From: Blattabacterium cuenoti
GTDB lineage: Bacteria > Bacteroidota > Bacteroidia > Flavobacteriales > Blattabacteriaceae
Length of the DNA stretch: 64,000 nt
Assembly (NCBI RefSeq): GCF_014251715.1
Contig: NZ_CP059198.1
Coordinates: 62,001 to 126,000 of the forward strand
Direction: 5' to 3'
Part shown: in pieces, positions 1,181-21,717 of the stretch
Position numbering within the stretch: the stretch's first letter is position 1
Layout of the letters: every line of letters begins with the position of its first letter
Notes under the pieces: generated by a model
What the model saw: only the letters and a program-made list of their open reading frames with translations
Database searches by the model: none
What the model was told of the DNA's origin: nothing
Position numbers and translations under genes: made by a program

Positions 1181-3310
1181 ATGATTTTAAATTATATGAT
1201 TCATCATTATTCGTCAAATAGTATAAAAAAAATTTTTTTCTCTTCTGCTTATTCAGATTCAGATGAAGATATTGAAAATGATAGTTCTACTTCTTCTTCT
1301 TATGGATCTGAAGGAAAGAGTTCTGGTTATTATGGAGGAGCTTCAATAAAAAGCAATACCCCTGTATTAGATAATTTTGGAAGAGATTTAAATGCTATAG
1401 CTATGGAAGGAAAATTAGATCCTGTAGTAGGGAGAGATCAGGAAGTAGAACGTGTATCTCAAATATTGAGTAGAAGAAAAAAAAATAATCCTTTACTTAT
1501 AGGCGAACCTGGAGTTGGTAAATCAGCTATTGCTGAAGGATTAGCATTACGTATTGTACAAAAAAAAGTTTCTAGAGTATTATATAATAAAAGAGTCGTC
1601 ATATTAGATTTAGCTAGTTTAGTTGCAGGAACTAAATATAGAGGTCAATTTGAAGAAAGAATGAAAGCTATTATAAATGAATCAGAAAAAAATACAGAAT
1701 TAATACTTTTTATAGATGAAATTCATACCATGATTGGAGCAGGTGGAACTACAGGTTCATTAGATGCTTCCAATATGTTTAAACCTGCTTTAGCAAGAGG
1801 ATATATTCAATGTATTGGTGCAACTACATTAAATGAATATAGACAATACATAGAAAAAGATGGTGCTTTAGAACGAAGATTTCAAAAAATTATAGTACAA
1901 CCTTCTTCTGAAGAAGAAACTATAGAAATTTTAAAAAAAATAAAGGGAAAATATGAAACTCATCATAATGTTCTTTATACAGAAAAAGCTATTAAAGCTT
2001 GTGTAAATCTTACGGGACGATATATTATTGATCGTTATTTGCCAGATAAAGCTATTGATGCCTTAGATGAATCAGGAGCTCGCGTACATATAAAAAATAT
2101 TAAAGTTCCACAAGAAATAGTTTTTCTAGAAAAAGAATTAGAAAGTCTTCGTAAAGAAAAATCTAAAGTAGTTAAAAGTCAAAAATATGAAGAAGCAGCG
2201 CGTTTACGTGATACAGAAAAACGTATAGAAAAAAAATTAATAAAAGCACAAAAAGAGTGGGAAGAATCTTCTAAAGAAAATAAAGAAATTGTATCCGAAG
2301 AAAATGTTGAAGAAGTGGTATCCATGATGAGTGGAGTTCCAGTTAACAGAATAGCTCAAGCTGAAATGAAAAAATTGAATAATATGATCAATCTTTTAAA
2401 AGATAAAATAGTAGGACAAGATGAAGCCGTAGAAAAAATAGTAAAAGCTGTTCAAAGAAATAGAACTGGATTAAAAGATCCTAATTCTATTATAGGATCT
2501 TTTATTTTTTTAGGTCAAACAGGAGTTGGAAAAACCTATTTAGCAAAAATTTTTGCGAAAGAATTATTTGATTCAGAAGAATCATTAATACGAATAGATA
2601 TGAGTGAATATATGGAAAAATTTTCTGTTACTAGATTAATAGGAGCTCCTCCTGGTTATGTAGGATATGAAGAAGGAGGACAATTAACAGAAATTATACG
2701 TCGTAGACCTTATTCTGTTATATTGTTGGATGAAATAGAAAAAGCTCATTATGAAGTATTCAATATTTTGTTACAAATATTGGATTATGGATGTGTTACA
2801 GATAGTATTGGAAAAAAAATAAATTTTAAAAATACCGTAATTATTTTTACTTCAAATACAGGAACACAGCAATTAAAAGAATTTGGTCAGGGTATAGGAT
2901 TTTATACTAAAGCAAGACAATCAAATAATTATATTAAAAATATTCTAGAACAAGCGTTAAAAAAAACTTTTTCTCCTGAATTTTTAAATAGAATAGACGA
3001 TATTATCGTTTTTAATTCTTTAACTAAAAAAGATATATCTAAAATAACTAACATAGAATTGGAAAAAATAATTTTACATGTATCTAATTTAGGTTATAAA
3101 TTAACTTTACTTCAGGAAGTAAAAGATTTTATTAAAAAAAAAGGATTTGACAATGAATATGGGGCTCGTCCTTTAAAAAGAGTAATAGAAAAATTCATAA
3201 AAAATCCTATATCAGAATGTATAATTAGTGAAAAATTAAAAAAAGGAGATCAAATTTTATTAAAAATAAATAATAAAAATAACGATATAGAAGTTATTAT
3301 TAATAATTAA
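1181..3310 (+). CDS. clpC: ClpC-type AAA+ unfoldase lacking the N-terminal Clp-N domain
   Basis: ATP-dependent unfoldase that feeds substrates to the ClpP protease in the cytoplasm. Two AAA+ modules are clear: Walker A GEPGVGKS at residues 108-115 with Walker B LFIDEIH, and a second Walker A GQTGVGKT near residue 445 with Walker B ILLDEIE. The middle domain carries the ClpC-type UVR-like segment (KYEEAARLRDTEKRIEKKL). A GIGF loop near residue 570 fits the ClpP-docking tripeptide. The protein has 709 residues against roughly 810-850 in the family. The paired Clp-N repeats of about 150 residues are absent, and the ORF begins in the acidic Ser-rich linker before NTPVLDNFGRDL. Only 70 bp separate it from dnaX, so the domain is not hidden upstream. 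Confidence 0.93.
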   Translation: MILNYMIHHYSSNSIKKIFFSSAYSDSDEDIENDSSTSSSYGSEGKSSGYYGGASIKSNTPVLDNFGRDLNAIAMEGKLDPVVGRDQEVERVSQILSRRKKNNPLLIGEPGVGKSAIAEGLALRIVQKKVSRVLYNKRVVILDLASLVAGTKYRGQFEERMKAIINESEKNTELILFIDEIHTMIGAGGTTGSLDASNMFKPALARGYIQCIGATTLNEYRQYIEKDGALERRFQKIIVQPSSEEETIEILKKIKGKYETHHNVLYTEKAIKACVNLTGRYIIDRYLPDKAIDALDESGARVHIKNIKVPQEIVFLEKELESLRKEKSKVVKSQKYEEAARLRDTEKRIEKKLIKAQKEWEESSKENKEIVSEENVEEVVSMMSGVPVNRIAQAEMKKLNNMINLLKDKIVGQDEAVEKIVKAVQRNRTGLKDPNSIIGSFIFLGQTGVGKTYLAKIFAKELFDSEESLIRIDMSEYMEKFSVTRLIGAPPGYVGYEEGGQLTEIIRRRPYSVILLDEIEKAHYEVFNILLQILDYGCVTDSIGKKINFKNTVIIFTSNTGTQQLKEFGQGIGFYTKARQSNNYIKNILEQALKKTFSPEFLNRIDDIIVFNSLTKKDISKITNIELEKIILHVSNLGYKLTLLQEVKDFIKKKGFDNEYGARPLKRVIEKFIKNPISECIISEKLKKGDQILLKINNKNNDIEVIINN

Positions 3311-19507: not shown

Positions 19508-20146
19508 TTATAAATAAAATGGAATAAATTTTTCAATATTATTGAATTTTTTTTTACAAAATTTTTTATATGAAATTAAAGACATATCCATTGCAGATGG
19601 AAAAATTTTAGAAAAAAATCTATTTTTTTTTCTAAAAAAAAATAATTTTTTTTCTAAAAAATCAATATTACTAAAAAAAAATACTTCTTTATTTTTAATT
19701 TTGAAAAAATTATCATTAATTTTTTTTATAAAAATAGAACTCAATCTTTCTTTTGATTCATTAAATAATGAAGTATAAAATAAATCAGATTTAGCATGTA
19801 TCATTGGAATTAAAAATCCATTTTTTATATTTATTTTTTGAACCATAACAGTTAAAGAATCTACCGACAATAAAGGAATATCTAAAGAATAACATAACCC
19901 TTTAGCAGCAGCTACTCCTATTCTTAAAGAAGTATACGATCCCGGACCTTTACTGACACAAATAGATTTTAAATCATGAAGACTAATTTTAGCTATTTTT
20001 GTAGCATATTGTATAAACATATGTAACTTTTCTGAATGAAAATATTGTTCAGAACATTCTTCTATAGAAGTTAAACATATTCCATTTTTAGCAATACTTA
20101 TTGAACAATTTTTTGTAGAAGTTTCTAAATTTAAAATTAAAGACAT
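19508..20146 (-). CDS. tsaB: tRNA threonylcarbamoyladenosine biosynthesis protein TsaB
   Basis: A 212-residue ASKHA-fold protein that partners TsaD and TsaE in making t6A37 on ANN-decoding tRNAs. The phosphate-1-like N-terminus (LILNLETSTKNCSISIAKNG) and the conserved SKGPGSYTSLRIGVAAAKGLCYSLDIPL segment define TsaB. I chose ATG at 20146 (MSLILNLETS); a TTG two codons upstream is less likely. It diverges from nadE across 27 bp. The C-terminal third is Phe/Lys-rich and degenerate, as expected in an AT-biased genome. Confidence 0.9.
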   Translation of the reverse strand: MSLILNLETSTKNCSISIAKNGICLTSIEECSEQYFHSEKLHMFIQYATKIAKISLHDLKSICVSKGPGSYTSLRIGVAAAKGLCYSLDIPLLSVDSLTVMVQKINIKNGFLIPMIHAKSDLFYTSLFNESKERLSSIFIKKINDNFFKIKNKEVFFFSNIDFLEKKLFFFRKKNRFFSKIFPSAMDMSLISYKKFCKKKFNNIEKFIPFYL

Positions 20147-20173
20147 ATACAATTAATTTAATTAAAAATAAAA

Positions 20174-20967
20174 ATGTATCATAAAACGATAAAAGCAGAA
20201 AAAATAATTCAACATATTGTTTTTTGGTTAAGAAAATATATTAAAAAATCTAAATCAAATGGTTTTATTATTGGAATATCTGGAGGAATTGATTCTTCTG
20301 TCACATCTTTTTTAACAGCTATGACAAAATTATCTACTATAATATTAGAAATGCCAATTTTAGAAAAAAAAAAAATTTTTTATCTGTTAAACATGCAAAA
20401 TTTTTAACCAAAAAATTTTCTAATGTTCATTATTTAAAAAAAGATTTATCCACCTTATTTACTTCTTTTTGTAATGCAATGAATATTAATAAAAAAAATA
20501 AAAAAAAACCTTTAGCATTGGTGAATGTGAAATCTCGTCTTCGAATGTTAACTTTATATTATTACGCTAATATAAAAAATTATCTTGTTGTTGGAACTGG
20601 AAACAAAGTAGAAGATTTTGGAGTAGGTTTTTTTACAAAATATGGAGATGGAGGAGTTGATTTACATCCTATAGCAGATTTAACTAAAAGTGAAATTCGT
20701 TTTATAGCTAAAAAATTAAATATTATAAATGAAATACAAAAAGCAAAACCAACAGATGGTCTTTGGGAAGATCAAAGAACGGATGAAGATCAATTAGGAG
20801 CAACTTATGAAGAATTAGAATGGGCTATGAAAATTACAAAAATAAAAGATTTTAATTATAAAGAAAAAGAATATCAAATTTTAAAAAAATATCAAACATT
20901 ACATAAAAAAAATAAGCACAAAATAATACAGATACCTGTCTGTAAAATTCCAAAAACTTTTAAATAA
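20174..20967 (+). pseudogene. nadE: NAD+ synthetase, reading frame broken in a poly(A) tract
   Basis: Ammonia-type NAD+ synthetase, which amidates deamido-NAD+ in the last step of NAD synthesis. Residues 1-66 read in one frame and include the PP-loop SGGIDSS. The rest reads in another frame (FLSVKHAKFLTKKFSNVHYLKK, ...VGTGNKVEDFGVGFFTKYGDGGVDLHP..., KPTDGLWEDQRTDEDQLG). The shift falls at A12 (20364-20375) followed by T6. Adding one A would restore a continuous protein of 264 residues with normal motifs on both sides. The state could be a young pseudogene, a sequencing error, or a gene rescued by RNA-polymerase or ribosome slippage on the A tract, as described for other insect endosymbionts. 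No second copy is in the window. Confidence 0.85.
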
Positions 20968-21042: not shown

Positions 21043-21717
21043 ATGATGGAAGAAAAACAAAAAAAAAAAATCCCTAATAAAAATTATATTTTGAATTACT
21101 CAATGAATCATAAAACTCCTTTACGAGAGGATGCTTTTTTTATGAGTGATGAAGAAAAAATTGAAAAAATAGAAAAACATTTTTTTCATATTATGAAAAT
21201 ATTAGGACTAGATATGAATGATGATAGTTTACGTAGAACCCCAAAACGTGTTGCAAAAATGTTTATACAAGAAATATTTAGTGGTCTTAATCCAAAAACA
21301 ACTCCTAGACCTTCTATTTTTGAAAATAAATATAAGTATAATCAAATGTTAATAGAAAAAAATATAACAGTTTATTCTACTTGCGAACATCATTTTCTTC
21401 CTATTGTAGGAAAAGCTCATGTTGGTTATATTTCTAATGGAAAAGTTGTTGGTCTTTCTAAGATAAACAGAATTGTAAATTTTTATGCAAAAAGACCACA
21501 AGTTCAAGAACGTTTAACAATGCAAATTGTAGAATCTTTACAAAAGATGTTAGAGACACAAGACGTAGCTTGTGTCATAGAAGCAAAACATTTATGCGTA
21601 AATTCTCGTGGTATTAGAGATATAGATAGCAGTACTATTACAACTGAATTTATAGGATCTTTTAAAAAAAATTCAAAAATTAGAAGAGAATTTTTACATC
21701 ATATTGGAATTGCATAA
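21043..21717 (+). CDS. folE: GTP cyclohydrolase I
   Basis: Converts GTP to 7,8-dihydroneopterin triphosphate, the first step of folate and pterin synthesis. Conserved core: RTPKRVAKMF, then the zinc and active-site residues in YSTCEHHFLPIVGKAHVGY, and CVIEAKHLCVNSRGI supplying the last cysteine ligand. Length is 224 residues, typical of the family. The N-terminus encodes KQKKK across an A12 tract (21059-21070) that could slip; an in-frame ATG at MNHKTPLRED offers a start downstream of it. The stop abuts the cysS start with no gap. Confidence 0.94.
   Translation: MMEEKQKKKIPNKNYILNYSMNHKTPLREDAFFMSDEEKIEKIEKHFFHIMKILGLDMNDDSLRRTPKRVAKMFIQEIFSGLNPKTTPRPSIFENKYKYNQMLIEKNITVYSTCEHHFLPIVGKAHVGYISNGKVVGLSKINRIVNFYAKRPQVQERLTMQIVESLQKMLETQDVACVIEAKHLCVNSRGIRDIDSSTITTEFIGSFKKNSKIRREFLHHIGIA

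Follow-up and report, generated by a model that had tools for sequence, protein, structure and literature searches.

The nadE gene encoding NAD+ synthetase in a Blattabacterium endosymbiont of cockroaches is one base out of frame at a run of 12 adenines (A12) and otherwise intact, and a stronger, larger and genus-wide case of the same kind is provided by nadD, whose product, nicotinate-nucleotide adenylyltransferase, acts directly before NadE in the same salvage route. These two genes, the last two for making NAD, are often out of frame at long A runs in this genus yet otherwise intact, which most likely means that the cells restore the frame during transcription or translation. Comparison of 49 genomes of the genus suggests that nadE and nadD are probably both functional, being rescued by some form of recoding, and that slippage of RNA polymerase is a reasonably likely main route of that rescue.

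The window analysed here is a stretch of 64,000 nucleotides (bases 62001-126000 of the single 621,487-bp contig) from the genome designated G000, in which the nadE locus has the following parts:

20174-20967, + strand: nadE as a whole, with a change of frame at A12 and otherwise intact
20174-20407, + strand: first nadE reading frame, 77 aa, matching TIGR00552 positions 3-46 (E 2.7e-9)
20364-20375, + strand: A12 tract, site of the nadE frame change, one base short of frame
20376-20967, + strand: remainder of nadE, continuing in the second frame up to the stop, matching TIGR00552 positions 67-243 (E 5.9e-40)
19508-20152, - strand: tsaB, intact divergent neighbour of nadE
21043-21717, + strand: folE, intact neighbour of nadE, with its own A12 in frame

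The frame opened by the ATG at 20174 ends after 77 codons at a stop (20405-20407) and carries the SGGIDSS motif, while the rest of NadE lies one base back and continues uninterrupted to the stop at 20965-20967. The two pieces match consecutive parts of the NCBIfam nadE profile. The original prediction placed a frame shift in an A12 followed by T6, restored by one extra A to an enzyme of 264 residues and with no further damage downstream, and each element holds at the positions found: A12 at 20364-20375, T6 directly after it at 20376-20381, a full length of 264 aa from the coordinates, and a downstream frame open to 20967. A second A12 (21059-21070), approximately 690 bp downstream of the nadE tract near the start of folE, is in frame and serves as an internal assembly control; runs near the folE start in relatives are A12 (G030, G003) and A15 (G031).

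We assessed the same tract across the genus, where nadE was present in 48 of the 49 genomes (a close relative is Blattabacterium cuenoti EUPOLsin, NZ_CP059203.1, at 75% identity). Four of these 48 (G000, G048, G034 and G013) have an out-of-frame A12 at this site, and relatives in frame there had A13 (G002, G035, G026 and G027), A10, or shorter or interrupted A runs. In a phylogeny built from eight neighbour genes, G000 was placed by G024, G034 by the in-frame G035, G048 by G020 and G046, and G013 near the base of its group. A single inherited break was rejected, since the four broken copies sit in four separate lineages and parsimony requires four changes; the break has therefore recurred at one tract without being inherited, and each instance may be young given that all four lie on terminal branches. 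This tree was inferred with FastTree and has local supports from 0.02 to 1.0, with several weak crown nodes; atpA and metB were left out of it, and the figures for atpA, metB and folE include partial genes. Frame breaks were also seen near the C-terminus of nadE in G028 (at an A13 run) and G045, and near the C-terminus of atpH in G027.

The part of nadE downstream of the break showed no sign of relaxation in the broken copies and evolved no faster than in intact relatives. Terminal-branch rates relative to the eight neighbour genes, computed with the topology fixed, were 1.02 (G000), 0.64, 0.58 and 0.66 in the broken copies, against a median of 1.05 for the 44 copies in frame at the tract. Differences between each broken copy and a relative were concentrated at third codon positions (positions 1/2/3: 20/17/40 for G000-G024, then 23/8/42, 18/6/39 and 20/15/43). 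Two observations named beforehand as contrary to the original prediction, a second intact nadE and additional inactivating mutations, were looked for: no second nadE was found in the 621,487-bp genome, and neither a stop nor a further frame change was found in the four broken copies.

In most genomes the nicotinate-nucleotide adenylyltransferase model was split over two frames at about residues 38-46. The G000 copy lies outside the window:

G000:C1:325512-326074: nadD, out of frame at A11

Of 48 genomes with the gene, 37 have it out of frame at a run of A10-A11 that lies within a conserved N-P-L-K-K-K stretch (29 copies one base short, eight one base over), and the other 11 have it in frame (sequence was read in 47 of the 48, G039 being called in frame from the model search alone). 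In this gene the break is conserved between species. Broken alleles recur within clades, one being common to eight genomes, one to five and two more to four each, and parsimony on the midpoint-rooted tree places nadD out of frame at the root, with seven changes into or out of frame; the sisters G020 and G046 carry alleles of opposite sense. Among genomes with at least 10 A at the site, 37 of 41 were out of frame and four in frame, whereas one third would be expected in frame if frame were ignored (P 5e-4 against two thirds out of frame, uncorrected for relatedness). Downstream frames of the out-of-frame copies are open to the end over 145-158 codons, with one stop in G044 in the stretch overlapping the junction. 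In 11 related pairs with both copies out of frame, 1585 compared codons showed 127, 77 and 177 differences at positions 1, 2 and 3 (P 8e-8 for departure from equal shares). The dN/dS of such pairs was 0.24-0.70, compared with about 0.29 in two pairs with both copies in frame, and was mostly higher than that of neighbour genes (0.12-0.32), indicating that constraint on out-of-frame nadD is real but weaker.

Retention of the surrounding pathway argues in the same direction. Intact pncB was found in 48 of the 49 genomes, and the exception, the 561-kb relative G029, is without pncB, nadD and nadE together, so that the nicotinate route is kept or lost as a unit. Full-length pncB is retained in genomes with out-of-frame nadD or nadE, including all four with a broken nadE, and this, together with retention or loss of the route as a unit, argues that the out-of-frame genes work. 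A route through nadC was rejected, as nadC exceeded the cut-off in none of the 49 genomes. In a published Blattabacterium model, nicotinate is listed as required, according to its Table 3 (PMC3819652). The original prediction called NadE essential, which does not hold for every lineage, as G029 lives without pncB, nadD and nadE.

Besides nadD, five further genes of G000 are broken at A runs:

L142/L144: peptidyl-tRNA hydrolase (pth)
L139/L174: type II dehydroquinase (aroQ)
L300, about 2331-3013: cca, broken at an A run of 11
L328, about 1886-2516: 5-formyltetrahydrofolate cyclo-ligase, broken at an A run of 11
L315/L338: coaD, broken at an A run of 9

Across the genus, pth was broken in eight and aroQ in seven of 49 genomes, with the rest of each gene readable. 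The sisters G027 and G037 share an identical broken aroQ allele (A11-C-T6), the simplest reading being that it was inherited from their ancestor; their downstream sequences differ by seven replacement and 17 silent changes in 97 codons (dN/dS 0.10). A shared ancestral pth break in G026, G027 and G037 was unsupported: the place is the same, but G037 is off by one base in the other sense. For coaD, a break at its A11 tract was rejected, that tract being in frame and the break lying at the later run of 9; among 30 of the 49 loci, of which 29 showed the site when read by eye, G024 and G013 were broken at the same place as G000.

Long A runs are not in themselves unusual in this AT-rich window, where the 37 A10 matches compare with an expectation of 32 and are equalled or exceeded in 25 of 100 shuffles. 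What exceeds chance is the breaking of frames and not the number of runs of A10 or longer. Over the whole genome there are 92 A/T tracts of at least 11 (37 of at least 12 and 55 of exactly 11), of which 64 fall within open frames and 22 at gene ends or in intergenic DNA. The other six disrupt genes that show no other damage (tracts of 12-13 in nadE, aroQ and pth; tracts of 11 in nadD, cca and the cyclo-ligase); these classes were assigned by script, with nadE and nadD moved by hand from spanned to broken. Across genomes, tracts of at least 11 were broken in one of 28 cases in ten neighbour genes versus 5/12 in nadE, 6/8 in pth and 6/12 in aroQ. Because pth and aroQ (and likewise coaD) were chosen as broken in G000, these fractions carry an ascertainment bias, which is partly removed by leaving G000 out; the contrast was then 14 of 29 in nadE, pth and aroQ together versus 1 of 28 in the ten neighbour genes (P 1.6e-4).

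These comparisons bear on explanations in which the G000 break is not a working allele at all. Long homopolymers are error-prone in sequencing, and A13 is in frame at the nadE tract in four relatives, such that the true G000 tract could be A13 with the assembly one base short. We regard an assembly error as improbable for this copy. Breaks depend on the gene and not on run length alone, and sequencing errors should show no dependence on the gene, which argues against an artefact. In addition, 25 other G000 tracts of at least 12 lie in open frames, coaD is broken at a run of just 9, and identical nadD alleles recur across many assemblies; as a general cause, assembly error was rejected for nadD and for the shared aroQ allele. 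Alternatively, G000 may have lost one A recently and carry a young null allele, NAD or a precursor being supplied by the host. The confinement of all four nadE breaks to terminal branches would suit such a history, and G029 shows that loss of the entire route (pncB, nadD and nadE) can occur, but four independent cases without a second lesion or faster evolution, intact pncB in all four genomes and the long retention of nadD while out of frame make it quite unlikely. Translation of two separate proteins, the second half of NadE having its own start, can draw on an ATG at 20479 that opens a 162-aa frame. This ATG is, however, the first ATG, GTG or TTG in the G000 downstream frame, and in the four broken genes no such codon occurs until 41-116 nt past the tract start, which makes a new start after the tract unlikely; the residues in between, kept in relatives, would also be lost, and we regard this explanation as extremely unlikely.

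If the out-of-frame genes are indeed read through, the sense of the breaks helps to separate polymerase from ribosome. Among 61 breaks counted over seven genes, 50 lack one base and 11 have one too many (short + over: nadE 4+0, pth 6+2, aroQ 7+0, nadD 29+8, coaD 3+0, cca 1+0, cyclo-ligase 0+1; the C-terminal nadE breaks of G028 and G045 are left out). Ribosomal -1 frameshifting on A AAA AAA slippery heptamers would make the full-length protein from faithful transcripts, and the tandem AAA codons in the nadE and nadD tracts are of the kind it uses. A slippery heptamer in the right frame suits the 50 alleles that are one base short, which a -1 slip would serve, but not the other 11, eight of them nadD alleles, and a single -1 slip cannot serve both senses in sisters such as G020 and G046. 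No stimulating RNA structure was evident downstream either, the nadD consensus fold having -1.1 kcal/mol and the nadE hairpins z scores of +0.05 to -1.8. Ribosomal slippage as the route to full-length protein therefore seems fairly unlikely, although the two routes are compatible and not exclusive. The 11 breaks of opposite sense, the switching of sense in G020 and G046 and the lack of evident RNA structure favour polymerase slippage. In Buchnera, homopolymers accounted for 151 of 157 transcript insertions, and single nucleotides for 80% of insertions (PMC5574713); polymerase slippage that mostly adds single bases suits the one-base-short majority. The same study observed no restored frame.

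Under the polymerase reading, nadE would be functional despite a tract one base short of frame: RNA polymerase would most likely slip on the A run, so that transcripts differ in length and a minority encode full-length NAD+ synthetase by carrying the correct A count; ribosomal slippage may assist. The same tolerance would extend to other enzymes of the genus, above all NadD, whose gene has lacked a continuous frame for most of the history of the genus. Rescue of nadE by slippage, as the original prediction proposed, agrees with the same lesion arising repeatedly at this tract (4 of 48 genomes), the lack of relaxation, of a second lesion or of a second nadE, and the like state of nadD across the genus; from these features we infer that a full-length product is made, and from the sense of the breaks and the lack of evident RNA structure that polymerase rather than ribosome slippage is its main source. 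A bolder and unlikely extension would be that recoding has taken over the two final steps of NAD salvage, nadD since near the base of the genus and nadE following, with the out-of-frame tract as a preferred state that throttles NadD output and not mere tolerated damage. The rarity of in-frame nadD alleles where the tract is long (4 of 41) would suit it.

We found no report of such breaks in Blattabacterium in the open-licence literature, without supplements, which probably leaves most genome papers of the genus outside. These genomes would extend slippage-tolerated genes from a few examples in Buchnera and Blochmannia to a genus of Bacteroidota with 49 comparable genomes, and would add a gene of central metabolism, nadD, that is out of frame in most species of the genus. 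If annotation pipelines label such genes as pseudogenes, as they may, NAD synthesis could drop out of metabolic models. The natural set of nadD alleles (in frame, one short and one over) also allows a direct test of the amount of slippage that a cell must have to survive.

Rescue of poly(A) frameshifts by transcriptional slippage in Buchnera and Blochmannia was reportedly described by Tamas et al. in 2008, and Wernegreen, Kauppinen and Degnan are said to have described ancient frameshifts held by selection in 2010. The precedent invoked by the original prediction is borne out in the accessible text of two reports: one gives the share of transcripts in which poly(A) frameshifts are corrected as 12-50% for symbionts of an aphid and an ant (PMC5009743), and the other describes eight frameshifted poly(A) genes, including pth, dnaX and dnaG, in Blochmannia vafer (PMC3017870); slippage-rescued frameshifts in both genera are likewise known, as far as the accessible text goes, through PMC4389277. 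Neither nadE nor nadD resembles an ordinary pseudogene, in which lesions would pile up or constraint relax after the break. As in the slippage-rescued class, each has a single frame break in a long A/T run (A12 in nadE, A10-A11 in nadD), and purifying selection acts on a sequence that is otherwise undamaged. Programmed -1 frameshifting of the dnaX type shares the A-rich slippery run with tandem AAA codons, but no downstream stimulatory structure was found in the nadE and nadD folds, and it could not correct 11 of the 61 breaks, whose sense is the opposite one. Closer in taxonomy is the flavobacterial symbiont Walczuchella, also of the Bacteroidota and with homopolymer frameshifts, some of which its authors say may still work; in the accessible text its frameshifted genes are listed among 27 pseudogenes, without a comparative test like the present one (PMC3971599). 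The Buchnera and Blochmannia cases remain the nearest likeness: an AT-rich, reduced insect symbiont, a single poly(A) indel in a gene otherwise undamaged and constrained, some breaks common to several species, and, in the accessible account of Blochmannia vafer, a frameshifted pth. Corrected transcripts were measured there at 12-50%. Unlike those symbionts, Blattabacterium belongs to the Bacteroidota, has nadD out of frame in 37 of 48 genomes of the genus, and carries breaks in both senses.
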